This document shows, one piece after another, positions 32,993 through 47,439 of a stretch of 64,000 bases of DNA. The notes under the pieces were generated by a model, which saw only the letters and a list, made by a program, of their open reading frames with translations, had not been told where the DNA came from and did no database searches. Where the stretch lies: the NCBI RefSeq assembly GCF_019634845.1, contig NZ_JAHCAQ010000004.1:174005-238004 (forward strand), given 5' to 3'. The position numbers and the translations under genes were made by a program. Source of the stretch: Dokdonella sp. GTDB lineage: Bacteria > Pseudomonadota > Gammaproteobacteria > Xanthomonadales > Rhodanobacteraceae. Numbering within the stretch: the first letter of the stretch is position 1; the number at the start of each line of letters is the position of its first letter.

Positions 32993-33017
32993 AAAAACGC
33001 CGGCACGGGGCCGGCGT
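32993..33017 (-). terminator. intrinsic terminator of the H-NS gene
   Basis: On the minus strand ACGCCGGC and GCCGGCGT form an 8-base stem followed by five T (AAAAA at 32993-32997 on the plus strand). It lies 29 bases after the H-NS stop codon. Confidence 0.75.
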
Positions 33018-33045
33018 CGTTCGCAGCATCAGGCGTATCGCCCGC

Positions 33046-33369
33046 TCAGCCGATGAGGAAGTCCTTTTCCTTCTTGCCGGCGGCCAGCGCCGCGGCGAAC
33101 CAGCGCGGCCGCTTGCCGCGACCGCTCCAGGTTTCGCCGGTGGTGGGATTGCGGAACTTCGGCTTGACCTTGCTGCGCGCCTTGCCGCCACGGCCGGCGC
33201 GGGCACCGAACACGTCATCCAGCGCGACGCCTTCGGCCTTGACCAGCGCCTGGATCTTGTCGCGCAGCTTGGACACGCGCTCCTTCGCCAGTTCGTGCTG
33301 ACGCGCCTTGGCGCGTGCAATGAGGTCGGTGAGCTGGTTGTGGTTCAGTGACTTCAAATCGATGGCCAT
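33046..33369 (-). CDS. H-NS family nucleoid-associated protein
   Basis: The 107-residue protein has an N-terminal oligomerisation helix (LTDLIARAKARQHELAKERV). The C-terminal DNA-binding motif is the H-NS type: FRNPTTGETWSGRGKRPRW (about residues 74-92), which inserts into the AT-rich minor groove. It should bridge DNA and silence AT-rich, acquired or virulence genes, as XrvA-type proteins do in xanthomonads. GGAG lies about 9 bases before the ATG. The 248-base upstream gap has AT-rich stretches that could support autoregulation. Confidence 0.92.
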   Translation of the reverse strand: MAIDLKSLNHNQLTDLIARAKARQHELAKERVSKLRDKIQALVKAEGVALDDVFGARAGRGGKARSKVKPKFRNPTTGETWSGRGKRPRWFAAALAAGKKEKDFLIG

Positions 33370-33617
33370 TCTGCTGTCTCCGCAATTTTGATTGCCTGTC
33401 CGGCGGGATGATTCGGTACTGCATCGCGTCGGCAGTTGCGCCATGCAGGCATCATTTCAATCATCCGATGAAAATGCGTCGGCATGGCTGCGGCATACCA
33501 AAATAATGGCGCCGTTCCATACAACGTCCGAGTCCTGGCCGGCGATTATACCGGCAGCCGGTGAAAATGACAGTGAAAAACCAGCGACCGGCAATTCCGA
33601 TGCCAGCCGCTCGTATT

Positions 33618-35315
33618 TCAGGCCAATCGTTCCAGCAGCGCTTCGCGTGACAATGCGAGGTTTTCGCTGTCGCCGCGCCGGCGATATTCGAACGTGCCTG
33701 CGGCCAAGCCGCGTTCGCTGACGACGATGCGATGCGGAATGCCGATCAGCTCGATGTCGGCAAACATCGGACCGGGGCGTAGGCCGCGATCGTCGAGCAA
33801 CACGTCGATGCCGCGAGCCTGCAGTTCGCCATACAACTGCTCGGCTTGTTCGCGCACCTGGGCGTTCTGCGCGGCGTTGATCGGGCAGATCACCGCGCGC
33901 CACGGCGCCATCGGTTCCGGCCAGATGATGCCCGCGGCGTCGTGATTCTGCTCGATCGCGGCGGCCACGATGCGGCTGACGCCGATGCCGTAGCAGCCCA
34001 TTTGCAGCACCTGCGACTTGCCTGCGTCGTCGAGCACGCTGGCGCCCAGTGCCGCCGCATACTTGTCACCGAGCTGGAATACGTGACCGACCTCGATGCC
34101 GCGCGCGATCTGCAGCGTGCCGTGGCCGTCGGGCGAGGGGTCGCCCTCGACCACGTTGCGGATATCGGCAACCCGGCTGATGCGTGCGTCACGCTCCCAG
34201 TTGGCGCCACGATAGTGACTGCCGTCGGCATTGCCGCCGCAGACGAAGTCGGCCAGGACCGCGGCGTCGCGGTCGACGATCACGGGAATCGTGTCGGGCA
34301 ATCCGGCCGGGCCGATGAAGCCGGGTGTGGTGCCGGTGGCAGCGATGATCTGCGCCTCGTCGGCCAGTGCGAGCGCGCCGGGCAGTTCGGCCAGCTTGGC
34401 GGCCTTGGTCTCGTTGATCTCGTGATCGCCGCGTACGCACAGTGCCACCAGGCCGTCGTTGCCGCGCACGACGAGGGTCTTCACGCACTGCTGCGGCGCT
34501 ACCGCGAGGAATGCGCTGACTTCGTCGATCGTCTTCTGCGTGGGCGTGGCGACGCGTTCGAGCGACTGGCGCGGCGCCGGCCGGGACGTGTCGGGGGCGC
34601 GCGCCTGCGCCATCTCCACATTGGCCGCATAGTCCGACCCGGTCGAAAACGCGATCGCATCCTCGCCCGAATCGGCCAGCACCTGGAACTCGTGACTGGC
34701 ATTGCCGCCAATCGCGCCGGTGTCGGCCTGCACGGCGCGGAACCGCAACCCCAGCCGCGTGAAGATGCGGGTGTAGGTGTCGTACATGTTGCGGTATTCG
34801 CTTGCCAGGCAATCGGCGGTCAGGTGGAACGAATAGGCATCCTTCATGAGGAATTCGCGCGCGCGCATCACGCCGAAACGCGGCCGGATCTCATCACGGA
34901 ACTTGGTCTGGATCTGATAGAAATTGATCGGCAACTGTCTGTAGCTGCGCAGTTCGTGACGTGCGTAATCGGTAATCACTTCCTCGTGGGTCGGGCCGTA
35001 GCAGTAATCGGCCTCCTTGCGGTCGCGAATCTTGAGCAGCTGGCCGCCGAATTTCTCCCAGCGCCCGGTTTCCTCCCACAACTCGCGGGGCTGCACCGAC
35101 GGCATCAGCAGTTCGAGTGCGCCGGCGCGATTCATTTCCTCGCGCACCACGTGTTCGACGCGCGACAGCACGCGCAGGCCCAGCGGCGACCAGGTGTAGA
35201 TGCCGGCCGCGAGCTTGCGGATCATGCCGGTACGCAGCATCAGCCGATGACTGGCGATTTCGGCGTCGGCCGGCACTTCCTTGACGGTGGACAGGTGAAA
35301 GCGGGACAGGCGCAT
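33618..35315 (-). CDS. proS: prolyl-tRNA synthetase
   Basis: This class II synthetase has 565 residues and the bacterial-type layout. The catalytic core carries motif 2 ([19 protein letters not shown]) and motif 3 ([17 protein letters not shown]). An editing (INS) domain of about 170 residues is inserted between them (around residues 230-395), which clears misacylated Ala-tRNA. The C-terminal anticodon-binding domain includes [20 protein letters not shown]. Start is the ATG of [10 protein letters not shown]. It is a single gene. Confidence 0.97.
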
Positions 35316-35516
35316 GGACGGTCACCACAGCAATGGAACCGCCGATTTTAGCAGTCTGCCCCGCCGCGCGTGCGCACGCTCAGGCAGCAGCGCTGCGCGG
35401 TGGACGAGGTGGGTCGTGATGCAGCGCTGCGCCGTGCGCAACGACGCGCGCGCACACGCCGCGGCGCCTGCATCGGGCGCGCGTCGAGCGTTGCGGACGG
35501 CGAGCGGCTGGAGCGC

Positions 35517-35936
35517 CTACTGCGAGGTGCAGAACAGCTTGATCTGCTGGTTGGCCTTGTCGATCTGGCCCTGGCGATGCTTGGCCGCATCGAGATCGAC
35601 CGGGTAACCCTCGGCATCGACGGCAGGCTTCTGCGCCTCGAGCGTGGCGAGGTTCTGCCTGGCCATGGCGCAGTTGCGCTTGATGTCCTCTTCCGAGTAA
35701 CCGGCCGCCGCCGCCATCGCCGGACCGGCCGCCTTCTTGGCATCGGCCTCTTCGTCCTCGGCCGGGGTGCTGGTGGTCACGCCGCCGCGCACATGCAGCT
35801 TCTCGGCCTTGACCGACTTGGGCGGTGGCGAGTCGGAGAAGTGCTTGACACCGTTGGCGTCGGTCCAGGAATACATCTCGCCGGCGGCAACGGGGGCGGC
35901 GACGAGCAGGAGCAGGGCAATCCAGATGGCTTTCAT
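35517..35936 (-). CDS. secreted DUF4124 protein
   Basis: A signal peptide (MKAIWIALLLLVAAPVAAG) is followed by a DUF4124 domain (MYSWTDANGVKHFSDSPPP), a small WW-like beta module common in gammaproteobacterial envelope proteins. A linker and a helical C-terminus (ARQNLATLEAQKP) ending in a Cys complete the 139 residues. The function is unknown. It lies 201 bases after proS on the opposite side of an unannotated gap in which I see no gene. Confidence 0.8.
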   Translation of the reverse strand: MKAIWIALLLLVAAPVAAGEMYSWTDANGVKHFSDSPPPKSVKAEKLHVRGGVTTSTPAEDEEADAKKAAGPAMAAAAGYSEEDIKRNCAMARQNLATLEAQKPAVDAEGYPVDLDAAKHRQGQIDKANQQIKLFCTSQ

Positions 35937-36082
35937 GGTCGGTTCTTTGGGTCGGCCGGATGTTCAGGGCGTCATCGGTGCGCACTGCATAGCATTGTTG
36001 CGCCCACGAGACAAGAAGAGCCGCCCGATTTTGTCGATCAGGGTACACTCCGGGCCTGGTTTCCCGGGGGCTGGAATCGAAC

Positions 36083-36883
36083 ATGGAAGCGCCAACGGCC
36101 GGTGCGCGCAAGCCGCCACGCGGCATCTACCTGCTGCCCAACCTGTTCACCACGGCGGCGATGTTCGCGGGCTTCTACGCGATCGTGGCCAGCATCGGCG
36201 GGCGTTATGTCGACGCCGCCATCGCGGTATTCGTGGCCGCGATCCTCGATGGCCTCGACGGGCGCGTGGCGCGCCTGACCGGCACGCAGAGCGAGTTCGG
36301 CGTGCAATACGATTCGTTGTCGGATCTGGTCAGTTTCGGCATCGCGCCTTCGCTCGTGCTCTACAACTGGTCGCTGGTGCACCTGCAGGCCTACGGTCCG
36401 GGTTGGGGCAAGGTCGGCTGGTCCGCGGCGTTCATCTACGCGGCCTGCGCGGCGTTGCGCCTGGCCCGCTTCAACACCCAGGTCGGGGTGGCCGACAAAC
36501 GCTATTTCCAGGGTCTGGCCAGTCCAGCGGCGGCGGGCCTGTGCATGTCCTTCGTGTGGGCGATCGAAAATGGCAACCTGTACGGCCTGTCGGTCAACGA
36601 AATGGACTTTGCCACGCCGATCGTCGCCGTGGTCGCCGGCCTGCTGATGGTCAGTCGCGTCCGCTACTACAGCTTCAAGGCCTGGCCGCTGTCCGACCGC
36701 GTGCCGTTCATCGCCATCCCGGTGGCGATGCTGGTCCTGGTCGCGCTGACCATCGACACCGCGCGCGTGCTGTTGGCGATCACTGGCCTGTACCTGCTGT
36801 CGGGACCCGCGCTGACGCTGTGGGGGCTGCGCCGCAAGCGCAGCGAGCGCGCCCAGCGTGGCGCCGGCAAAGGCGCCTCATGA
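36083..36883 (+). CDS. pssA: CDP-diacylglycerol-serine O-phosphatidyltransferase
   Basis: Makes phosphatidylserine, the precursor of phosphatidylethanolamine, from CDP-diacylglycerol and serine. The CDP-alcohol phosphotransferase signature is intact in DGLDGRVARLTGTQ followed by YDSLSDLVSFG (D-G-x2-A-R-x8-G-x3-D-x3-D pattern). The 266-residue protein has about eight TM helices, so it is the membrane (type II) enzyme, not the soluble E. coli type. The stop overlaps the next start (ATGA), which ties phospholipid synthesis to the regulatory and Mla genes downstream. Confidence 0.94.
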   Translation: MEAPTAGARKPPRGIYLLPNLFTTAAMFAGFYAIVASIGGRYVDAAIAVFVAAILDGLDGRVARLTGTQSEFGVQYDSLSDLVSFGIAPSLVLYNWSLVHLQAYGPGWGKVGWSAAFIYAACAALRLARFNTQVGVADKRYFQGLASPAAAGLCMSFVWAIENGNLYGLSVNEMDFATPIVAVVAGLLMVSRVRYYSFKAWPLSDRVPFIAIPVAMLVLVALTIDTARVLLAITGLYLLSGPALTLWGLRRKRSERAQRGAGKGAS

Positions 36884-38598
36884 CCGCGGCGCAGCCGGCA
36901 GTCGTCGCCGGCGCCGCGGCCACGCCGCGGCTGCGCGACACCGGCGCGCTCGTGTTCCTGGCCGAGCTGTCACGCGCACTGGCCGTTTCGCTCGACCTGC
37001 ACCAGACCCTCACCCAGGCAATCACGCGCGTGCGCGACTTCCTCGAAGTCGAAGGCATCGCGCTGTTCCTGCTCGACGCGGCCAGCCAGGTGCTCGAGTG
37101 TCGCGTCAGCGCCGGCCCGATCGACGTCACCGGCATGCGACTCGCGGTCGGCCAGGGCGTCGTTGGCCAGACGCTGGCGCAGGACTGCACCCAGATCGTG
37201 GCTCAGGCACAGGACGATCCGCGCCTGTGGCGCGGTTCGGACGAGGCCAGCGGCTTCATCACCCGCAGCCTCGTCTGCGCGCCGCTGCGCACGGCGGCGG
37301 GGCCGATCGGCGTGATCGAAATCGTCAACCGCCGCGACGGCGTGCCGTTCAGTGCCGCCGATGCCGAACTGCTCGAACTGGTCGCGGCTCCGGCCGCACT
37401 GGCGATCAACAACGCGCGCCTGGCCGGCGAGCTGCTCGAGCAGCAGCGGCTCAAGCGCGAACTCGACCTGGCGCGCCACCTGCAGAAATCGCTGCTGCCG
37501 CGGCGCCGCCGCGACGGTTTTCCGGTGCTGGGCGTGAATCGTCCCGCGCACGAGATGTCGGGCGACTTCTACGACTATTTCGAACTGCCCGGCGGCGACA
37601 TCGGCTTCGTGATCGGCGACATCGCCGGCAAGGGACTCGATGCGGCACTGCTGATGATGCGGGCGGCAAGCCTGCTGCGCTGGATCGGCAAGGAGCATCC
37701 GGCGCCGGCGCTGTGGCTGGCGCGCGCCAACGAAGAGCTGTGCGAATCGGCGCGCGAAGGACGCTTCGTCTGCGCGGTGGTCGGCTACTGCGACCGCGCC
37801 GCCACCCGCGTGCGCTTTGCCAACGCGGGGTTCCCGCCCGTGCTCGTGCTGCACGGCGGCCAGTACCGCCAGTATCTCGCCGACGGCCCGCCACTCGGGA
37901 TCGTGCGTGAGGTCGGCTTCGACGAACACGAGGTCGCGCTCGATGGCGGCGCGCTGTACGCATTTTCCGATGGCGCCACCGATGTGCGCGGCAGCGACGG
38001 CCGGCCGATCGGCCTGGCCGGCCTGCGCGCGCTGATCGAGCGTCACGCCCAGGCCACGCCCAAGGCGCGCCTGCGCAGCCTGCTCGGCGAGCTGCGCCGC
38101 CTGCATCTGGTCGACGACACCACCTTCCTGCTGATCGAGGCGGCGCAGGCCGAACGGCCCGAGCTGCTGTTCACGCGCAGCCTGCCGGCGCGCGCCGAGT
38201 CGATGCGCGGTCTGCGCGCCGAGCTGCGCGCGGTGTTCGACCAGCAGGCGATCGAACCGCGGTTGCGCGACGAACTCGTGCTGGCGGTGGACGAAGCCTG
38301 CACCAACGTGATCCGCCATGGTTATGGCCCGGACTGCGAGGGTCCGCTGACGGTGCGCGCCACGCGCTGCGCGGCCACGCTGACGCTCGAGATCGTCGAC
38401 GAGGCGCCGGCGGTGGACCCGGCCTCGCTCCGGCCGGGCACGCTGGGGGAATGCCGCTGCGGCGGCCTCGGTATCGCCTTGATCGACCGGATCATGGACG
38501 ATTGGCGCATCGAGCCGGCCGCCGACGGGCGCGGCAACCGGCTCGTCCTGCACAAGCACATCGACAGCTGGGCCGGCGAGGAGGCGGCGGACGCATGA
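36880..38598 (+). CDS. GAF - PP2C (SpoIIE-type) phosphatase - HATPase kinase fusion, RsbU/RsbW-like
   Basis: The 572-residue chain has three regulatory domains. A GAF domain spans about residues 25-185. A helical linker follows, then an SpoIIE-type PP2C phosphatase (about 210-420) with metal ligands in GDFYD (228-232), GDIAGKG (246-252), SDG (363-365) and DDTT (412-415). A GHKL ATPase of the RsbW/SpoIIAB type (about 430-562) has the N-box EACTN (472-476), DEAPAVDP and GGLG (528-531). All catalytic residues look intact, so one protein could both phosphorylate and dephosphorylate a STAS partner. The next gene encodes such a STAS protein and overlaps it (ATGA). Confidence 0.9.
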   Translation: MTAAQPAVVAGAAATPRLRDTGALVFLAELSRALAVSLDLHQTLTQAITRVRDFLEVEGIALFLLDAASQVLECRVSAGPIDVTGMRLAVGQGVVGQTLAQDCTQIVAQAQDDPRLWRGSDEASGFITRSLVCAPLRTAAGPIGVIEIVNRRDGVPFSAADAELLELVAAPAALAINNARLAGELLEQQRLKRELDLARHLQKSLLPRRRRDGFPVLGVNRPAHEMSGDFYDYFELPGGDIGFVIGDIAGKGLDAALLMMRAASLLRWIGKEHPAPALWLARANEELCESAREGRFVCAVVGYCDRAATRVRFANAGFPPVLVLHGGQYRQYLADGPPLGIVREVGFDEHEVALDGGALYAFSDGATDVRGSDGRPIGLAGLRALIERHAQATPKARLRSLLGELRRLHLVDDTTFLLIEAAQAERPELLFTRSLPARAESMRGLRAELRAVFDQQAIEPRLRDELVLAVDEACTNVIRHGYGPDCEGPLTVRATRCAATLTLEIVDEAPAVDPASLRPGTLGECRCGGLGIALIDRIMDDWRIEPAADGRGNRLVLHKHIDSWAGEEAADA

Positions 38599-38939
38599 GT
38601 GCGATGGCCAATGCGGTAACGCGCGAACGCAGCGACGGCGCCATCCTCGTGCGCCTGCGCGGCGAGGTGGACCTGTCGTGGTCACAGCAGGTGCGCCGCG
38701 CCGTGCTCGACGCCTTCGATGCGGGCCTCGCGGTCGGCATCGACCTTGCCGACGTGGCCTACATCGACTCGTCCGGCATCGCGGCCCTGGTCGAGGGCCT
38801 GCAGCAGGGCCGCGCGCGCGGGCAGCGCTTCGCGCTGGTGGCGCCCAGCGCCGCCGTGCGCGCGGTGCTCGAGTTGGCACGGCTCGACCGCGTGTTCGAC
38901 ATCGTCGACACGCCGGCTGCGCTCGGTGGCACGGGGTGA
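38595..38939 (+). CDS. STAS-domain protein, anti-sigma-antagonist/MlaB-like
   Basis: This 114-residue single STAS domain has the phospho-acceptor motif VAYIDSSGIAALVEG; the first Ser of DSSG is the residue phosphorylated by RsbW-type kinases in SpoIIAA/RsbV. E. coli MlaB, a STAS protein that binds MlaF, is encoded in the mla operon. This protein is therefore either an MlaB or an anti-sigma antagonist, and perhaps both. It overlaps the kinase-phosphatase gene upstream (ATGA) and the mlaE GTG downstream (GTGA). Confidence 0.88.
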   Translation: MSAMANAVTRERSDGAILVRLRGEVDLSWSQQVRRAVLDAFDAGLAVGIDLADVAYIDSSGIAALVEGLQQGRARGQRFALVAPSAAVRAVLELARLDRVFDIVDTPAALGGTG

Positions 38940-39733
38940 ACGCGCTGCAACGTCCGCTGCACGAGGTCGGCCGGACCGCGCTCGGCGCGATTGCCGGCGT
39001 CGGTTACGCGGCGATCGTGCTCGTCGAATCGCTCTACTTCCTCGTTGCCGGACGCCGCGTCGGCCAGCGCGTGCGGCTTGGCGCGATCGCGCAGCAGATG
39101 CGCGAGATCGGCGTCGACGCGTTGCCGATCGTGGCCCTGCTCGGGTTCACGGTCGGCCTCATGCTCGGCATCCAGTTCGTCGCCTCGCTGGCCGAGTTCG
39201 GCGCGCAATCGCAGGTGGTGGTGGCGGTGGCCAAGTCGGTCACCCGCGAGTTCGGCGCGCTCATCACGGCGATCCTCGTTGCCGGACGCTCGGGCTCGGC
39301 GCTGGCCGCGCGCATCGGCTCGATGAGCGTGTCGCAGGAAGTCGATGCACTGGCGGTGATGGGCATCGAACCGGTCCGCTATCTGGTGGCGCCCGCGCTG
39401 GTGGCCATGCTCGTCATGCTGCCGACGCTCACGATCTTCGCCAATGCGATCGCGATCTTCGGCGCGGCGCTGTACAGCGCGCCGGCGCTCAACGTCACCC
39501 CGCTCGCGTACCTGTCGCAGACCCTGGCGCTGCTGTCGCCGGGCGATGTCTGGCAGGGCCTGTCCAAGAGTGTGGTGTTCGCGGTGCTGATCACACTGAT
39601 CGGCGTCAGCACCGGGTTTTCCGTCACCGGTGGCGCCGAGGGCGTCGGTCGCGCCACCACGCGCGCCGTGGTGCTGTCGATCTGCTGGATCATCGTGGTG
39701 GACATGGTGTTTTCGTACTTCATCAACCGCTGA
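38936..39733 (+). CDS. mlaE: MlaE-family ABC permease
   Basis: Inner-membrane permease of the Mla system, which moves phospholipids between the inner and outer membranes. The 265-residue protein has the MlaE domain: VALLGFTVGLMLGIQFV, then TREFGALITAILVAGRSGSALAARIGSM, and DALAVMGIEPVRYLVAPA. The GTG start overlaps the STAS stop, and GGGG lies immediately upstream. The overlap implies coupled translation and matched stoichiometry. Confidence 0.93.
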   Translation: MNALQRPLHEVGRTALGAIAGVGYAAIVLVESLYFLVAGRRVGQRVRLGAIAQQMREIGVDALPIVALLGFTVGLMLGIQFVASLAEFGAQSQVVVAVAKSVTREFGALITAILVAGRSGSALAARIGSMSVSQEVDALAVMGIEPVRYLVAPALVAMLVMLPTLTIFANAIAIFGAALYSAPALNVTPLAYLSQTLALLSPGDVWQGLSKSVVFAVLITLIGVSTGFSVTGGAEGVGRATTRAVVLSICWIIVVDMVFSYFINR

Positions 39734-39734
39734 C

Positions 39735-40535
39735 ATGGACACGCCTGCACCGCTCATCGAAGTCGCCGGTCTCGATGCCTGGTACGGTCGCCGGCAGGTG
39801 CTGTTCGGCGTCGATTTCACGGTCAGGCCCGGCGAGATCCGCGTCATCATGGGCGGCTCGGGCTCGGGCAAGTCGACGCTGTTGCGCCACCTGCTCGGGC
39901 TGCAACGGCCGGTCGCCGGCAGCGTGCGCCTGTTCGGCGTCGATCTGGGCCGGGCCGACGAACGGGAGTTGCTGGCGGTGCGCAAGCGCATCGGCGTGTC
40001 GTTCCAGGGCGGCGCCCTGCTGACCTCGCTCAGCGTCGGCGACAACGTGGCGCTGCCGCTGCGCGAGCACACCGATCTCGACGAAGCGACGATCCGCATC
40101 ATGAGTCGCATCAAGCTCGAGGTGGTCAACCTCGGTGGCTTCCAGGACCTCATGCCGAGTCAGCTGTCGGGCGGCATGGTCAAGCGCGCCGCGCTCGCGC
40201 GCGCGCTGGTCATGGACCCACGCCTGCTGTTTTTCGATGAGCCCTCGGCTGGACTCGATCCGGTCGTATCGGCCGAACTCGATGAGCTCATCCTGCGCCT
40301 GCGCGACGCGCTGCGCATGACGATCGTGGTGGTCACCCACGAGCTGGAAAGCGCGTTCAAGATCGCCGACACGATCACCGTGCTCGATCAGGGGCGCGTG
40401 CTCATGACCGATACCGTCGCGGCCGTGCGCGGCGCCGACAACGAACGCATCCAGGACCTGCTCAACCGCCGCCCGCGCGAGGTGGCGATCGACGCCGAGG
40501 CCTATCTGCGGCGTCTCACCGAGGAGCGCGCATGA
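39735..40535 (+). CDS. mlaF: MlaF-family ABC ATPase
   Basis: ATPase of the Mla phospholipid transporter, 266 residues. Walker A is GGSGSGKST, the Q-loop is in GVSFQGGALLTSLSV, the signature is LSGGMVKRAALARAL, Walker B is LLFFDEPSAGLDPV, and the switch His is in VVVTHELES. The QGGALLTSLSV and SGGMVKR sequences are characteristic of the Mla/MCE branch. In E. coli a STAS protein (MlaB) docks on MlaF; the STAS gene here is two genes upstream. Confidence 0.94.
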   Translation: MDTPAPLIEVAGLDAWYGRRQVLFGVDFTVRPGEIRVIMGGSGSGKSTLLRHLLGLQRPVAGSVRLFGVDLGRADERELLAVRKRIGVSFQGGALLTSLSVGDNVALPLREHTDLDEATIRIMSRIKLEVVNLGGFQDLMPSQLSGGMVKRAALARALVMDPRLLFFDEPSAGLDPVVSAELDELILRLRDALRMTIVVVTHELESAFKIADTITVLDQGRVLMTDTVAAVRGADNERIQDLLNRRPREVAIDAEAYLRRLTEERA

Positions 40536-40587
40536 GTCTTGCTAAAGTGTCGGCCGATGCGACGCGCGCAGGCGCAGGGGAGGCCGC

Positions 40588-41514
40588 GTGAAACGCGACA
40601 CCGTCAATTACACGCTGGTCGGCGCGGTGGTGCTGGCAGGTGCCGCGCTGCTGCTCGTGGCGCTGGCGCTGATCACCGGGCGCTCGCTGGCCAGCAACGA
40701 CTATCTCGTGCGCTATCGCAACGTGACCGGCCTGCGCCATGGCGCGCCCGTGTTCTACGAGGGCTACCGCGTCGGCCAGGTCGGCGCGGTCACGCCCGAG
40801 CGCAGCGCCCAGGGCACGCGCTACAAGGTCGAGCTCAAGATCCGCCGCGACTGGTCGATCCCGGCCGACAGTGTCGCGCAGCTGCAATCGAGCGGGCTGT
40901 TGGCCGACGTCTCGATCGGCATCCGTGAAGGCGGCAGTCCGGTTCCGCTCAAGGCGGGCGGCGAGATGCAGGGCGAAGAAGGCGGCAACGTGTTCATGGC
41001 GATGAACGACCTCGCCACCGAGATCAACGCGCTCACGCGCAGCCAGATCGAGCCGCTCATCAGGTCGCTGTCGCAGCGCGTGGATTCGATCGGCGGCACG
41101 CTCGATTCGCGCGCGCCCGCCATCCTCGACCAGGCCCAACGCCTGCTCGAACGCCTCAACGACACCTCGCTCGCGCTCGGCGACGTGCTCAAGCCCGAGA
41201 ATCGCAAGGCGGTGGCGACGATCCTCGCTCAGGCGCGCGACCTCACCGGCGAGCTGCGCCAGACGCGGGTCACGCTCGACCAGGCGCTGGCCGACCTGGC
41301 TGGCATCGCCCACGACAACCGCGCCGACATCCGCGACTCGGTCGAGGATCTCACGGCCATGCTGCAGGCGCTGTCCAGCCGCATGGACGTGATCAGCCAT
41401 CACCTGGATTCCACCAGCCGCAACATGGACGCGTTCAGCCGCGAGATCCGCATGCACCCCAACCGCCTGATCGTGGCCCCCAAGGCCGATCGGCCCGACG
41501 GAGAACCGCAATGA
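40588..41514 (+). CDS. mlaD: MlaD-like MCE-domain protein
   Basis: The 308-residue substrate-binding component has one N-terminal TM helix (YTLVGAVVLAGAALLLVALALI) and an MCE domain (YLVRYRNVTGLRHGAPVFYEG...IREGG), then a long helical C-terminal region (residues 130-300) that is much longer than in E. coli MlaD. The tail resembles other xanthomonad MCE proteins and may form a tunnel or reach toward the outer membrane. The start is GTG with GGGGAGG just upstream. It lies 52 bases after mlaF. Confidence 0.9.
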   Translation: MKRDTVNYTLVGAVVLAGAALLLVALALITGRSLASNDYLVRYRNVTGLRHGAPVFYEGYRVGQVGAVTPERSAQGTRYKVELKIRRDWSIPADSVAQLQSSGLLADVSIGIREGGSPVPLKAGGEMQGEEGGNVFMAMNDLATEINALTRSQIEPLIRSLSQRVDSIGGTLDSRAPAILDQAQRLLERLNDTSLALGDVLKPENRKAVATILAQARDLTGELRQTRVTLDQALADLAGIAHDNRADIRDSVEDLTAMLQALSSRMDVISHHLDSTSRNMDAFSREIRMHPNRLIVAPKADRPDGEPQ

Positions 41515-42122
41515 AGGCGCGTCTGGCCGCGTTCGTCGCCGTCGTCGCGCTCGGTGCCTGCTCGGCACCGACCGTGCCCGATTTCACCTGGTACCGGCTG
41601 CCGCGGCCACAGCCGCCACCGGCGCTGACGCAGCCCTGGGCCGGCTCGGTCGTGGTCGAGGACTTTGCCGCCGATGGCCTGTATGCCGACCAGGCTCTCG
41701 TGTACGCACTCGACGCCGATGCACAGCAGCTGCGCCAGTACCACTACCAGATGTGGGCCGATCCACCGACCCGCATGCTACAGCGGCGACTGGCCGTGAC
41801 GCTGCGTGGCGCCGGTCTGGCACGCACGGTCAGTGATGAACTGCCGGCCAGTCGTGATGCGATGCGCATCCGCGGCAACCTGCTGCGGATGGATCGCGTG
41901 CCCACCAGCGCAGGCGGCTGGGAGGTCGTCGTGGTGCTCAAGCTGCGCGCGGTCGCGCCGGGCGACCGCGTGCTGGTCGACGACATCTACCGCGACGGCG
42001 AGCCTGCCGGCGGCAGCGAGCTCAAGGCCAGCGTCGACGCCTACGGCGCTGCGATCGATCGCATCTACGCACGCTTCCTCGCCGATCTGCAGCAGCACCA
42101 TGGAGACGGCGATGCTCGATGA
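41511..42122 (+). CDS. ABC-type transport auxiliary lipoprotein (PqiC-like)
   Basis: The 203-residue protein has a signal peptide with lipobox LGAC. The body resembles the ABC-type transport auxiliary lipoprotein/PqiC family: PDFTWYRLPRPQPPP, then VVVEDFAADGLYADQALVYA and YHYQMWADPPTRMLQRRL. PqiC partners PqiB and is thought to sit on the outer membrane as an acceptor for MCE lipid transporters. It overlaps mlaD (ATGA) and the holD-like gene by 11 bases. Confidence 0.85.
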   Translation: MKARLAAFVAVVALGACSAPTVPDFTWYRLPRPQPPPALTQPWAGSVVVEDFAADGLYADQALVYALDADAQQLRQYHYQMWADPPTRMLQRRLAVTLRGAGLARTVSDELPASRDAMRIRGNLLRMDRVPTSAGGWEVVVVLKLRAVAPGDRVLVDDIYRDGEPAGGSELKASVDAYGAAIDRIYARFLADLQQHHGDGDAR

Positions 42123-42537
42123 AGCCGCCCTGCGGCGGCTGGCCGAGATGGGCATCGACGTCTACCGGCCGCGCGCACAGTCAGCGCCTGCTGGTGCCGG
42201 GTCCGCCGCGCCGGATAGCGGCGCGGCAACGGTATACCTGCTCGCCGAACAGGCCGACCACCCGCTGCTGCAGGCACTGTCGTGCACGTTCACCCTGGCG
42301 GGAGTCGGTGCCGTGGTGGCGCGTGCGCAGGCCGGCACCGACCTCGCTGGCGCGCGCGCGCTGGTGGCTTTCGGCGCGGCCCAGGCGCGTGCGGTCGGTG
42401 GCCTGCTCAGCGCCCGGCAGCAGGCCGCGATCGGTTGGGTGGCCACCGGCGAGCTGGCGCAGTTGCGCGGCGATGCGCTGGCCAAGCGCGCACTGTGGGG
42501 CGAACTCAAACGCCTGCTGCGTCAACTGCGCGACTGA
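42112..42537 (+). CDS. holD: probable DNA polymerase III psi subunit (divergent HolD)
   Basis: The N-terminus (LRRLAEMGIDVYRPR) resembles the chi-binding and clamp-loader-binding segment of E. coli HolD (QLQQLGITQWSLRRP), and the end (AKRALWGELKRLLRQL) resembles ARAALWQQI of HolD. The 141 residues match the usual size. It precedes rimI, the same order as holD-rimI in E. coli. holC (chi) is also in this window. Evidence is therefore motif plus synteny; similarity is low between the termini. The start is ATG 42112 with GGAG six bases upstream, overlapping the lipoprotein gene. Confidence 0.65.
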   Translation: MLDEAALRRLAEMGIDVYRPRAQSAPAGAGSAAPDSGAATVYLLAEQADHPLLQALSCTFTLAGVGAVVARAQAGTDLAGARALVAFGAAQARAVGGLLSARQQAAIGWVATGELAQLRGDALAKRALWGELKRLLRQLRD

Positions 42538-42683
42538 ATCGGGCGCGCAGCGCCGAGCTCCGACGGGTGGCTGCTTCGCGCCGCCGGGCGGCCATGCGCG
42601 CGCTGGCCAAGTCGGCGTTTCGTGGCAAGATCGGCGCCGGGCCGCGCCGATCGCGGCATTGCCAGCCAGGACCCACGCACGCT

Positions 42684-43160
42684 GTGGTTGCGATCCTCAA
42701 ACCCGGGCCTGCCGAATTCCGTCGCATGCGCGCCGAGGATCTCGATGCGGTGGCCGCGCTCGAAGTCGCAGCCTACGAGTTTCCATGGACGCGCGCGATC
42801 TTCGCCGACTGCCTGCGCGCCGGCTATGACTGCATCGTGCTTGGCGATGGCCACACGATCGTCGGCTATGGCGTGCTGTCGGCGGCGGCCGGTGAGGCGC
42901 ACATCCTCAATGTGTGCGTGGCGCCGATGCTGCATGGCAACGGCAATGGCCGCCGCATCGTCCGGCGCCTCATCGACATCGCGCGCTGGCAGCGCGTCGA
43001 GCGGGTCTACCTCGAAGTGCGGCCGTCCAACCCGCGCGCGATCGGTTTGTACGAGTCGATCGGCTTCAACGAGTTCGGCCGTCGGCCCAACTACTATCCG
43101 GCGAAGAAGGGCCGTGAGGACGCGATCGTGATGGCGATGGAGCTGCTGCATGAGCCATGA
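42684..43160 (+). CDS. rimI: ribosomal protein S18 alanine N-acetyltransferase
   Basis: This GNAT-family acetyltransferase modifies the N-terminal alanine of S18. Visible features are FRRMRAEDLDAVAALEVAAYEFPWTRAIF at its usual place (given in two parts: FRRMRAEDLDAVAALE and VAAYEFPWTRAIF), the acetyl-CoA loop VAPMLHGNGNGRRIVRRL (G-x-G-x-G/R), and LEVRPSNPRAIGLYESIGFN. Length is 158 residues from the GTG at 42684, which leaves 14 residues before the conserved MRAEDLD, as in other RimI. An ATG at 42594 would add 30 Arg-rich residues and is less likely. It closes the operon that starts at pssA. Confidence 0.9.
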   Translation: MVAILKPGPAEFRRMRAEDLDAVAALEVAAYEFPWTRAIFADCLRAGYDCIVLGDGHTIVGYGVLSAAAGEAHILNVCVAPMLHGNGNGRRIVRRLIDIARWQRVERVYLEVRPSNPRAIGLYESIGFNEFGRRPNYYPAKKGREDAIVMAMELLHEP

Positions 43161-43240
43161 GCTGACACCAGGCGCCGCCGCGTTGTAAGGTGATCCGCGA
43201 CTGCACGGCTTTTCGCGCAGCATCGTTTCAGGGGGCAATG

Positions 43241-44545
43241 ATGAGACGCTGGGGATATGCGCCGGGTCTGGCGCTGCTTGGCTGCGCCGCATTGGCGCAG
43301 GCGGATGTGTGCCGCGTCACGCCGACGGGCGCTGGCGTCGGTACGTGGAACGACACCTCGACCCTGCAGGCAGCACTCGGCAATGCCCAGTGCACGGAAA
43401 TCTGGCTCGCCGCCGGCGTCTACCGGCCTTCCGCCAGCGACCGCGCCGTCAGCTTCGTGATCAAGCCGGGAGTTGCCGTGTATGGCGGTTTTGCCGGCAC
43501 CGAGACCGTGCGCGCGCAGCGCGCGCCGGCGCTCCATCGCGCGGTGCTGTCGGGCGACATCGACGCGGACGACATCGACGTCGACGGCAATGCCATCGCC
43601 GAGTCGACGGCCGACATCCAGGGCAGCAACAGCTACCAGGTGGTGGTGATGGATGGCACCACCGGTACGCCGTTGCTGGCCGATACCACGCTCGATGGCG
43701 TCACGATCACGGCCGGCAACGCCGACGGCAACCCGCCGCTCAACTCCGGCGGCGGTGTGTATTGCAATGGCGTGGGCGCAGGCAGCGTCTGCAGCCCGAC
43801 CGTGCGCAACGTCGTGTTCAGCGGCAACGCGGGCAAGTTCGGCGCCGGCATGTCCAACCATGCCAAGGTCGGGATCGCCAGCCCGACCGTCCGCGATGTC
43901 ACGTTCACCGGCAATGCGGCCAGCTTCGAAGGCGGTGCGATGATCAACTACGCGACGTCGGGAGGCACCAGCAGTCCAAGCCTGGTCAATGTCAGTTTCA
44001 GCGCCAACCAGGCGCTCTTCAAGGGCGGTGCGATGCGCAACGACGCGGCGACCAGCGACAGTGTCTGCAGCCCGCTGATGACCAATCTCACCTTCGCCGG
44101 CAACAGCGCCACCAACGGTGGCGCCATCGTCAACCAGGGTGTGGCGACCGTGCAGATGCGCAATGTGATCCTGTGGGGCAACAGTGCGACCCAGGCCGGC
44201 AACCAGATCCACAACACCGGGTCCGCCGCGGCGACCATCGACCACAGCCTCGTGCAGGGCTCAGGCGGCAGCGGCAACTGGGATGCGGCGCTGGGCATCG
44301 ATGGGGGCGGCAATCTCGATGCGGATCCGCTGCTGGGCCCCTTGGGCGATCACGGCGGCCTCACCCCGACACGATTGCCGGGCATGCCCGGGGCCGCGAT
44401 CGATGCCGGCACCTGTGCGGGCGCACCATCGCACGATCAGCGCGGCGTGGCTCGTCCGCAAGGCGCTGCGTGCGACATCGGCGCGGTCGAACTCGTGCTC
44501 GACCGCATCTTCGCCGATGGCTTCGATGCCGCACCGATTCCCTGA
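43241..44545 (+). CDS. secreted right-handed beta-helix protein with F-x-x-G-F-D tail
   Basis: The 434-residue protein has a signal peptide (LALLGCAALAQA). Beta-helix (choice-of-anchor Q/PbH1-type) coils follow, with regular repeats of the form SPTVRNVVFSGNAG, SPTVRDVTFTGNAA, SPSLVNVSFSANQA and SPLMTNLTFAGNSA. The end LVLDRIFADGFDAAPIP carries the same F-x-x-G-F-(D/E) tail as the protein at 29293. It is probably extracellular; an adhesin or glycan-degrading role is conjecture. GGGGG lies five bases before ATG 43241. Confidence 0.82.
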   Translation: MRRWGYAPGLALLGCAALAQADVCRVTPTGAGVGTWNDTSTLQAALGNAQCTEIWLAAGVYRPSASDRAVSFVIKPGVAVYGGFAGTETVRAQRAPALHRAVLSGDIDADDIDVDGNAIAESTADIQGSNSYQVVVMDGTTGTPLLADTTLDGVTITAGNADGNPPLNSGGGVYCNGVGAGSVCSPTVRNVVFSGNAGKFGAGMSNHAKVGIASPTVRDVTFTGNAASFEGGAMINYATSGGTSSPSLVNVSFSANQALFKGGAMRNDAATSDSVCSPLMTNLTFAGNSATNGGAIVNQGVATVQMRNVILWGNSATQAGNQIHNTGSAAATIDHSLVQGSGGSGNWDAALGIDGGGNLDADPLLGPLGDHGGLTPTRLPGMPGAAIDAGTCAGAPSHDQRGVARPQGAACDIGAVELVLDRIFADGFDAAPIP

Positions 44546-44589
44546 GCGGGCCGGCGGCCGATCGCCGGCACGTTGTGCAGGTCTGGCGT

Positions 44590-47439
44590 TCAGGCCGCCG
44601 CGAGCCTTTGCGCCTGCTCGCGCAGGCCGGCGATCGTGGCGCCGAACTCGGCGATGCGCTGGCGTTCCTGTTCCACGACGTGGTCGGGCGTGCGCTCGCC
44701 AAAGTTGGCGAGTTTGGCGCTGGCCTTCGCCAGCTCGCCCTCGAGGCGCTGGATTTCACGCGCCAGGCGCGCTTTCTCGGCATCGAGGTCGATCAGGCCG
44801 GCCAGCGGAATGAGGAGCTTGAGCTCGCCGACGATCGCGGCCGCGGCGGCGGGTTCGGCGGCGCCGGCGGCAAGCCAACGCGGCGACTGCGCCTTGGCCA
44901 GAAAGCCGATCTGCGCCGCCAGCCGGTCCGCGCGCGCGCGATCCTCGGCGCTGCCGTGGGCGTACAGCAGCGGTATCTCCTTGCCCGGCGCGATGTTCAT
45001 CTCGCTGCGGATGCGGCGGATCTGCGTCAGCACGGCGCGCAACCATTCGATGTCGGCGCTCGCGGCCGCGTCGTCGCAGGCGAAATCCGCTGCGCGCGGA
45101 TAGGGCCGCTGCAGCACGCTGGCTGGCGTCAAACCCAATCGCGGCGCGACCGTCTGGTAGATCTCCTCGGTGATGTACGGGGTGATCGGGTGCAGCGCGC
45201 GCAACGCGGCTTCCAGCACCCGCAGCAGCGTGTGGCGCGTGGAGGCGGCCGCCTGCGCGTCGCTGCCTTGCAGCGCGGGCTTGGCGAGTTCGACGAACCA
45301 ATCGCAGTATTCGTTCCAGACGAATTCGTACAGCGCCTGCGCCACGAGGTCGAAGCGATAGACGCGCATCTGCGCTTCGACCTCGGCGAGCGTCGCGCGC
45401 AGGCGGGCCAGGATCCACTGCTCCGCCGCCGTGCACGGCGCGTGCCGATCGGCGGAGTGGATCGTGCCTGCGGCGGCGCCGGTGTCGGTGTTCATGAGCA
45501 CGAAGCGCGCCGCATTCCATAACTTGTTGCAGAACGCCTTGTAGCCTTCGGCGCGCTTGAGGTCGAAGTTGATCGTGCGGCCGTAGGTCGCCAGTGCGGC
45601 GAAGGTGAAGCGCAGCGCGTCGGTGCCGACCGCGGCGATGCCGTTCGGGTAATCCTTGCGGATGCGCTTTTCGACCTTCTCGCGCACCTGCGGGATCAGC
45701 AGCGAGGCCGTCGACTTGCGCGCGAGATCCTCCAGCGAGATGCCGTCGATGAGGTCGAGCGGGTCGATCGTGTTGCCCTTCGACTTGGACATCTTCTGGC
45801 CTTCGGCGTCGCGCACGATGGCGTTGATGTAGACCTCGCGGAACGGCACCTTGCCGGTGAAGTACTGCGTCGCCATGACCATGCGCGCGACCCAGAAGAA
45901 AATGATGTCGAAGCCGGTGACGAGCACGGCGCTGGGCAGGAAGGCCTGGTCGGTCGTCCAGTTGGCGACGACGTGGCCGGCCTCGCGCGTGTCGCCCGGG
46001 TTGGGCCAGCCCAGTGTCGAGAACGGCCACAGTGCCGACGAGAACCAGGTGTCGAGCACGTCCTCGTCCTGCCTCAGTGCGCCGACCGGCGGCGTGCCCG
46101 CGTGCGCGATCGCATCGGCGGCATCCTCGCCGACGAAGATGTTGCCGGCCTCGTCGTACCAGGCCGGGATCTGGTGGCCCCACCACAACTGGCGGCTGAC
46201 GCACCAGTCCTGGATGTTTTCCAGCCACTGGTTGTAGGTCGTGGACCAGTTCTCGGGCACGAACCTGATGGCGCCATCGCGCACCGCCGCGAGCGCGGGT
46301 TCGGTGATCGCCTTGCGCCCGCCCGGGCCCGGCTTGCCATCGACGCGCGTGTCGCTGGTGAGGTCGAGGAACCACTGGTCGGTCAGCATCGGCTCGATGA
46401 TCGCCTCGCTGCGCTGGCTGACCGGCACCTGCAGCTTGTGCTTTTTCGTTTCGACGAGCAGACCTTGCGCTTCGAGATCGGCGAGCACGGCCTTGCGCGC
46501 GGCGAAGCGGTCCATGCCGCGATACTTTTCCGGGGCTTCGTCATTGATCTTGGCGTCGAGCGTGAGCACCGTGATCGGCGCCAGGCCATGGCGCAGGCCG
46601 ATCTGCCAGTCGTTGAAGTCGTGCGCCGGCGTGATCTTGACGCAACCGGTGCCGAATTCGCGCTCGACGTAGGCGTCGGCGATCACCGGGATCTGGCGCC
46701 CGGTCAGCGGCAACGTCAAGGTCTTGCCGACCAGATGTGCATAGCGTTCGTCCTCGGGATGCACTGCCACCGCCACGTCGCCGAGCATCGTCTCGGGGCG
46801 TGTGGTGGCGACCACGAGGCTCGTGCTGCCGTCGCTGGCCGGATAGCGGATCGACCACAACGAGCCGTCCTTCTCCTGGTTGTCGACCTCGAGGTCGGAC
46901 ACCGCAGTCATCAATACCGGGTCCCAGTTGACGAGCCTGCGCCCGCGGTAGAGCAGGCCATCGCGGTACCACTGCACGAACACGCGCCGGACCGCGGCCG
47001 AGAGCCCTTCGTCCATCGTGAAGCGCTCGCGCGACCAATCGATCGACGCGCCCAGCCGCCGCATCTGGCGCGTGATGGTCGAGCCCGATTCCTGCTTCCA
47101 TTCCCACACGCGCTCGACGAAGGCCGTGCGGCCGAGGTCATGGCGCGACTGGCCATTGGCCGCGAGCTGGTTCTCGACGATCTTCTGGGTCGCGATGCCG
47201 GCATGGTCGGTGCCGCCCTGCCACAACGTGCGGCAGCCGCGCATGCGGTGGTAGCGGATCAGCAGGTCCATGATCGTCTGCTGGAACGCATGGCCCATGT
47301 GCAAGGTGCCGGTCACGTTGGGCGGCGGCAGCAGGATGCAGTAGGGCTCACCATCGCCGTGTGGCGCAAAGTCGCCGGCGGCCTCCCAGGCGGCATACCA
47401 CTTGGATTCGATCGCGGTCGGTTCGAAACTCTTGTCCAT
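44590..47439 (-). CDS. valS: valyl-tRNA synthetase
   Basis: This class I synthetase has 949 residues. The HIGH motif is in [14 protein letters not shown] and the KMSKS motif in [15 protein letters not shown]. The CP1 editing domain lies between ([19 protein letters not shown]-like sequence), and the C-terminal coiled coil is present ([22 protein letters not shown]), which distinguishes ValRS from IleRS. Start is the ATG of [10 protein letters not shown], divergent from upp. In E. coli valS follows holC; here two genes on the other strand separate them. Confidence 0.97.

Follow-up and report, generated by a model that had tools for sequence, protein, structure and literature searches.

Why is an enzyme that resembles the phosphatases and kinases of sigma factor control encoded within the operon of a lipid transporter? 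The question is raised by a run of seven genes, all on the + strand, at 36083..42122 of a stretch of 64,000 nucleotides (nt) from Dokdonella sp. (GCF_019634845.1, NZ_JAHCAQ010000004.1, positions 174,005-238,004), which is called the window; its positions are used below. The second gene (36880..38598) encodes a protein of 572 amino acids (aa) in which a GAF domain (1.3e-12), a SpoIIE-type PP2C phosphatase (1.3e-36), and an RsbW-type HATPase_c_2 kinase (1.3e-25) are fused. It is followed by genes for a standalone STAS protein of 114 aa (38595..38939; Pfam STAS, 3.6e-18), a MlaE permease with a GTG start (38936..39733; PF02405, E 3.5e-70), and a MlaF ATPase (39735..40535; ABC_tran, 9.2e-29). As judged from sequence comparison, the probable answer, to which we assign roughly two chances in three, is a partner-switching module in charge of an MCE lipid transporter, whose ATPase would be the partner. 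The inference that the kinase/phosphatase is dedicated to the STAS protein of the transporter is supported by gene linkage, by co-occurrence without linkage, by a census of one kinase and one STAS protein per genome, and by a C-terminal tail of MlaF.

The gene order and the overlaps ATGA, ATGA, and GTGA described in an earlier reading of the sequence alone agree with open reading frame (ORF) calling and Pfam matches for all seven genes; four-base overlaps are found at 36880 (ATGA), 38595 (ATGA), 38936 (GTGA), and 41511 (ATGA). The catalytic residues of phosphatase (D229, D247, D364, and D412/D413) and kinase (E472 and N476) are present in one chain, as had been claimed, and so is the acceptor serine of the STAS protein, S59, which lies in a DSSG motif within YIDSSGIAALVEG and is the predicted site of phosphorylation. 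The metal-binding residues of the phosphatase are conserved across relatives, and the N-box residues E472 and N476 are invariant in an alignment of 68 kinase domains from 69 loci. The window enzyme carries kinase and phosphatase in one chain; in some relatives, the two are split.

RsbU/RsbV/RsbW and SpoIIE/SpoIIAA/SpoIIAB each consist of a PP2C phosphatase, a GHKL serine kinase, and a STAS protein carrying a phospho-serine. The window genes share a phosphatase, a kinase, and a phospho-acceptor STAS protein of these types, but in contrast to RsbU/RsbV/RsbW it is an ABC transporter, not a sigma factor, that is encoded alongside as the putative partner, and kinase and phosphatase form one chain. 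In comparison of the enzyme profile with PDB, Rv1364c of M. tuberculosis (3ke6, 9.5e-20), RsbW (6m36, 1.2e-13), and SpoIIAB (1.7e-10) were found behind GAF phosphodiesterases; among the solved relatives that extend over the phosphatase and partly over the kinase region, Rv1364c scores best. Rv1364c, which belongs to a sigma factor context, includes a STAS domain in the same chain, whereas the STAS protein of the window is separate.

Linkage and separation of the genes within the order

The enzyme served as query for 151 genomes of the order; 56 of them match with E<=1e-30, and 49 still do so with E<=1e-80, the next match having an E value of 4.6e-43. Beyond the window there were 62 matches, and the regions surrounding 60 of them were fetched. 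The cut-offs of E<=1e-80 and of 37% identity (applied below) were chosen post hoc, from gaps in the match lists. The 49 strong loci comprise 28 (27 fetched ones and the window) in which STAS and MlaE genes follow the enzyme gene, 20 unlinked loci of the Marinicella family (f9) with pssA and the enzyme gene, STAS and MlaE not being nearby, and a single locus at a contig end. MlaF, MlaD, and a PqiC-like gene are also seen at 17 of the 27 fetched linked loci, and pssA adjoins the enzyme gene in the order-level relatives. A survey of whether the gene order recurs in Xanthomonadales had been suggested for checking the sequence-only reading; recurrence was observed at 28 of 49 loci and extends to alphaproteobacteria. 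Since the gene order recurs in many families, a chance arrangement is excluded.

The window MlaE query matched 51 of the 151 genomes at E<=1e-50. Enzyme and this MlaE type are both present in 48 genomes and both absent from 99; MlaE only was found in three (G123, G143, and G148, all f9 draft assemblies) and the enzyme only in one (G073, with a cut contig), counts which share ancestry and hence are not independent. One genome that lacks both (G104) carries a distant version of the cluster, L102. In the window's own family, all five genomes with enzyme or MlaE have the other as well.

Co-occurrence without linkage is seen in 12 genomes of family f9, in which the genes lie apart. MlaE gives a single strong match in each of them (G098 alone has a further, weak one), and in all 12 a STAS gene is situated beside the strong match. 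Enzyme and STAS genes are 52-57 kilobases (kb) apart in the nine genomes that have both on one contig, and are located on different contigs in the remaining three. The separation of pssA-enzyme from STAS-mlaEFD is exemplified by G098:C22:24721-81766, and looks as if one insertion or rearrangement had split the cluster. In G078, which is not one of the 12, the two parts are found on different long contigs. According to a search with PF01740 and PF13466, the STAS ORF beside MlaE is the sole standalone one (102-133 aa) in each f9 genome, the other STAS-domain matches falling in ORFs of 499-623 aa. Likewise, the sole full-length HATPase_c_2 match (12 of 12 genomes) sits inside this enzyme; the remaining matches cover the domain only in part and score lower, some of them nevertheless above the Pfam cut-off. 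Thus, after separation of the genes, a single kinase of this type and a single standalone STAS protein are left, and the STAS gene stays with the transporter.

Gene order might also be conserved by hitchhiking, with no functional tie between the neighbours. Conservation of a neighbour inside a single lineage is indeed exemplified by pssA, but enzyme and transporter co-occur even where their genes are separated by 52-57 kb or sit on separate contigs, and we regard mere hitchhiking as highly improbable.

The C-terminal tail of MlaF, the predicted phospho-site and a proposed switch

In E. coli, a C-terminal extension of MlaF places Y261, L265, and L266 into the groove between MlaB and MlaF (PMC7367683). 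The window MlaF ends in a comparable putative docking tail, AYLRRL (Y257 and L261). A tail of the form Y-x(2-4)-L was observed in the alignment columns of 39 of 40 kinase-linked MlaF proteins, in 12 of 12 f9 proteins, and in four of four MlaB clusters, and is missing from six of six MlaF proteins without a separate STAS match alongside. For this count, 40 of the 49 kinase-linked loci yielded a MlaF sequence, pieces of <=240 aa having been left out. In L251, one of the six tail-less cases, MlaE carries a fused part that weakly matches STAS_2. A seventh MlaF without adjoining STAS, L250, does possess the tail; its genome (G540) holds an unlinked kinase-STAS pair, L168, and the tail is what the partner-switch model would predict there. 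Although the criterion was set post hoc, after the alignment had been seen, no other sequence evidence favours docking of the STAS protein on MlaF as strongly as the co-conservation of the tail.

All 49 STAS proteins from kinase-linked loci and all 12 from f9 loci have the DSSG motif, while four MlaB-type proteins differ, with DTGG in E. coli, DSAT in the MlaB-like protein of the same Dokdonella genome, DSSV in L247, and DSAA in L249. In the available portions of PMC5016091 and PMC7367683, E. coli MlaB is described as needed for the assembly of MlaF with MlaE; T52 is central in the MlaF interface, and T52E weakens MlaF binding (PMC7367683). A T52A variant keeps binding and assembly but abolishes ATPase activity (PMC5016091), and T52 is therefore not a simple switch in E. 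coli. Phosphorylation of MlaB has been proposed in these two papers, with no kinase named in the parts available, and one of them calls the regulation an open question.

The STAS protein might instead be a constitutive MlaB-like subunit, for which the serine of DSSG is needed without its phosphorylation being a physiological switch; the main substrate of the enzyme would then lie elsewhere, e.g., in phospholipid synthesis with the pssA-like enzyme. Such a role is in agreement with E. coli MlaB, which works without a known kinase and whose T52A variant behaves as described (as far as these sources could be consulted), and with the f9 genomes, in which the enzyme gene stays with pssA and STAS-mlaEFD is found elsewhere. 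It accounts poorly for the exact retention of DSSG in the kinase-linked STAS proteins, for the nearly invariable joint presence or absence of the enzyme and this MlaE type, and for alphaproteobacterial and other loci which combine the enzyme with STAS-mlaE and give no pssA hit. We consider this explanation unlikely, at about one chance in eight by our reckoning of the same comparisons.

For the preferred partner-switching module, the following course can be proposed. The STAS protein would stand in for MlaB. Unphosphorylated, it would dock on MlaF, helped by the C-terminal tail of the latter, and would let MlaFED assemble and hydrolyse ATP, so that transport is on. The HATPase domain would phosphorylate Ser59, and may also hold the STAS protein; phospho-STAS would leave MlaF, and transport would be off. 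The SpoIIE-type domain, governed by a signal sensed through GAF, would dephosphorylate the STAS protein and thereby turn transport on again. We infer both the phosphorylation and the binding of STAS to MlaF; the direction of the switch is presumed by analogy with T52E of E. coli MlaB (PMC7367683) and could be reversed.

With E. coli MlaFEDB, the window system shares MlaE, MlaF, MlaD, a small STAS protein, the MlaF tail, a Ser or Thr at the SpoIIAA phospho-site, and proposed phosphoregulation (PMC5016091 and PMC7367683, as far as available). It differs in that the sources at hand name no kinase or phosphatase for MlaB, that MlaC is part of the E. coli operon, and that the MlaB sequence is far from the window STAS protein. 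SypE of Vibrio fischeri likewise acts both as kinase and as phosphatase on one STAS protein, the single-domain SypA, but controls biofilm formation, and a transporter is not mentioned in the accessible text (PMC8256260). In a literature search over titles and abstract openings, with subscription journals thinly covered, no description of a SpoIIE/RsbW-type enzyme together with Mla was found. The parts and their logic are already known; their combination with the ATPase of a transporter in the role of putative partner did not turn up in this search. The neighbourhood of kinase/phosphatase, STAS protein, and lipid pump in many bacteria suggests that the pump is switched via a phosphorylated docking protein, which so far was only guessed for the family, and it provides a likely enzyme, a likely substrate residue, and numerous genomes (including those of the non-pathogenic Dokdonella, Marinicella, and Paramagnetospirillum) for testing phosphoregulation of the MlaB type. 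If true, bacterial envelope lipid traffic would be subject to fast post-translational on/off control, and a transporter would join the outputs of partner switching.

Loci beyond the order and exceptions

A scan of named genomes with the enzyme was evaluated for the best 80 loci listed. Among these, 17 of the 21 loci with >=37% identity have STAS and MlaE following, the exceptions being two Marinicella loci, L162, and L168, and any MlaE match was obtained for two of the 59 loci of lower identity, namely L196 and, at a distance of 8.6 kb, L226. Linked members with pssA are Dokdonella and Lysobacterales metagenome-assembled genomes, and a Rhodanobacteraceae metagenome-assembled genome is a member as well. 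In Paramagnetospirillum, Phaeospirillum, and other Rhodospirillales, magnetospirilla among them, enzyme-STAS-mlaE occurs without a pssA hit, so the order of this block is kept from gamma- to alphaproteobacteria. Repeated loci (L154, L155, L254, and L248, equal to L055, L056, L164, and L108) were dropped, and so was the unlinked locus L013. Start codons of relatives were set mechanically, and some intergenic gaps are unreliable.

Because the alphaproteobacterial loci give no pssA hit, pssA was rejected as an essential part, and its link to the enzyme is, by the distribution of the genes, apparently lineage-specific. The proposal that phosphorylation of the STAS protein switches a lipid transporter therefore fared differently in its two halves: a dedication of the enzyme to the transporter's STAS protein gained support from linkage, co-occurrence, census, and MlaF tail, and the tie to phosphatidylserine synthesis does not hold as a general feature.

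Other arrangements were observed in distant loci. L160 (L160:8929-14843) and L166 show enzyme-STAS-mlaE-mlaD-mlaA-mlaC with mlaF on the opposite strand (in L160, MlaA 1.8e-70 and MlaC 1.9e-46 by Pfam), the arrangement in which an enzyme of this kind is most closely joined to canonical Mla genes. In L196:6194-10602, an Akkermansia record, STAS-mlaE-mlaF-mlaD precedes a GAF-SpoIIE-HATPase_c_2 chain, and the STAS motif is again DSSG. L102:6477-11665 encodes a FHA-GAF-SpoIIE protein, a separate HATPase_c_2 protein, STAS, MlaE, MlaF, and MlaD. In a MlaE tree, with rows of >290 aa trimmed to 270, kinase-linked members occur in four places, which forces at least three label changes (gains or losses), the placement of L102 and L196 being unsure due to long branches. 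These separate places also argue against hitchhiking, although the rows were gathered through the enzyme.

A phylum sample of 398 genomes was searched with MlaE independently of the enzyme. Six genomes carry this MlaE type at E<=1e-55, and four of them have a linked kinase-STAS module (G000, G012, G158, and G288, whose contig starts inside the kinase). Considering all these loci, it is slightly better than an even bet that a dedicated kinase/phosphatase switches a widespread class of bacterial lipid transporters by phosphorylating a serine of the STAS subunit reversibly, an ABC ATPase replacing the sigma/anti-sigma partner. Modules on separate MlaE lineages, including the mlaD-mlaA-mlaC loci, would suggest that kinase-less MlaB-type subunits could be relics.

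Several observations, besides the T52A phenotype in E. coli, weigh against control of the transporter by this module. Three kinase-STAS loci (L162, L168, and L231) have no mlaE following STAS. The MlaE loci found in the two genomes which harbour L162 (L162:8872-10982, in M. molischianum, G539) and L231 (L231:1372-3651, in G435; at its gap of 606, a separate kinase ORF is not among the matches) belong to other clades, with no adjoining STAS match and a tail-less MlaF, and in these two genomes the STAS protein may serve something else. In the order, the stretch fetched contains MlaF and lacks a MlaD match at six of the 27 linked loci (two on short contigs); at four further ones, L052-L055 of family f12, the enzyme is followed by STAS-mlaE, but neither mlaF nor mlaD was matched within the stretch fetched. 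The sole kinase-linked MlaF without the tail belongs to L102. In the phylum sample, G240 has this MlaE type but an unlinked GAF-phosphatase with STAS (DSSA), a kinase-STAS module was sought and not found in G198, which has this MlaE, and linkage is confined to G000, G012, and G158 among the 16 genomes with an enzyme-profile match at E<=1e-60. Finally, the STAS profile is far nearer to anti-sigma antagonists (TM1442 1.1e-21, SpoIIAA 7.6e-13, and RsbV 2.6e-11) than to E. coli MlaB, a weak match with E 0.0043, and for this reason another partner is conceivable.

Enzyme and STAS protein could thus form an ordinary RsbU/RsbV/RsbW circuit that acts on a transcription regulator or another protein and shares the operon for co-expression only. 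The STAS profile matches point in this direction, as do the genomes of L162 and L231, in which kinase-STAS is present and neither a main-clade MlaE nor a tail-bearing MlaF was found, and some distant phosphatase loci which pair with STAS and show no MlaE. Against it stand the block order kept from gamma- to alphaproteobacteria, the f9 STAS gene, which upon separation stays with mlaE and not with the kinase, the failure to find a second standalone STAS protein in the f9 genomes, and the co-conserved docking tail of MlaF. Such a circuit is unlikely in our view, if somewhat less so than a constitutive STAS subunit.

Of the 16 phylum genomes mentioned above, the 13 unlinked ones are G435 and 12 of family f49 with GAF-phosphatases that match little beyond the phosphatase. 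Family f49 was rejected as a member, 11 of its 12 loci consisting of the phosphatase only and L233 of phosphatase and STAS, with no MlaE in the stretches fetched; the genome of L233 is G240, which has its MlaE of this type elsewhere. Downstream of STAS-mlaE in L053, an ORF resembling acyl-CoA dehydrogenases was noticed by eye. In Pelagibacteraceae (L189, L190, L195, L199, L200, and L203), a recurring cluster pairs two matches to the phosphatase with a STAS gene and a kinase-like match that lie on the opposite strand, and it shows no MlaE match.

Class of the transporter and other loci of the genome

The run begins with a CDP-alcohol phosphatidyltransferase gene, pssA-like (36083..36883; CDP-OH_P_transf, PF01066, E 3.3e-18), and ends with genes for a MlaD/MCE protein of 308 aa with a long C-terminal part (40588..41514; PF02470, E 1.3e-13, residues 37-114) and a PqiC-like lipoprotein (41511..42122; ABC_trans_aux, PF03886, E 2.7e-11). 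The labels pssA and PqiC-like, taken over from the sequence-only reading and general knowledge, are presumed ones.

The run had been termed a Mla operon. Genes for MlaE, MlaF, and MlaD are present according to Pfam, but the term needs correcting because MlaC or MlaA gave no match at 33001-45000 of the window, a PqiC-like lipoprotein is encoded, and MlaD is long. In canonical Mla, MlaC is encoded in the operon, and MlaD has less than about 50 residues beyond the MCE domain (PMC7790496), a limit which the window MlaD, with its MCE domain at 37-114 of 308 aa, exceeds. Homologues of MlaE and MlaF, a long MlaD, a PqiC-like lipoprotein, and the lack of MlaC are shared with Mpc, the Mla-Pqi hybrid of Brucella (PMC12436622). 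In Mpc, STAS is fused to the N-terminus of MpcE, whereas it is a separate ORF of 114 aa here, and the available text on the four-gene Mpc operon does not mention a kinase or phosphatase (PMC12436622). By its gene content, the window transporter is thus best described as a Mla-Pqi hybrid, Mpc-like, rather than a plain Mla operon.

In the assembly, which comprises 3.26 Mb on 27 contigs at 90% completeness, there are three MlaE loci, three SpoIIE matches (one of them partial), and four STAS matches. On contig C5, canonical mlaF-mlaE-mlaD-mlaC is followed by the gene of the MlaB-like STAS protein with DSAT. On C27, mlaE, mlaF, and mlaD are found, and a standalone STAS match is absent from the stretch fetched. 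With three MlaE loci, one of them canonical, the window operon is a paralogue. A separate mlaB elsewhere in the genome had been named as a finding that would speak against a phospho-switch; a separate mlaB literally exists on C5, yet it sits in a different, canonical mla run, and was dismissed as a refutation since it belongs to that cluster. A second partner-switch set is located at G000:C22:130814-132078 (L013:5773-8429) of the same genome, where 13 kb fetched gave no MlaE match; it comprises a STAS protein with ASSF, a HATPase-like match, and a SpoIIE protein in opposite orientation.

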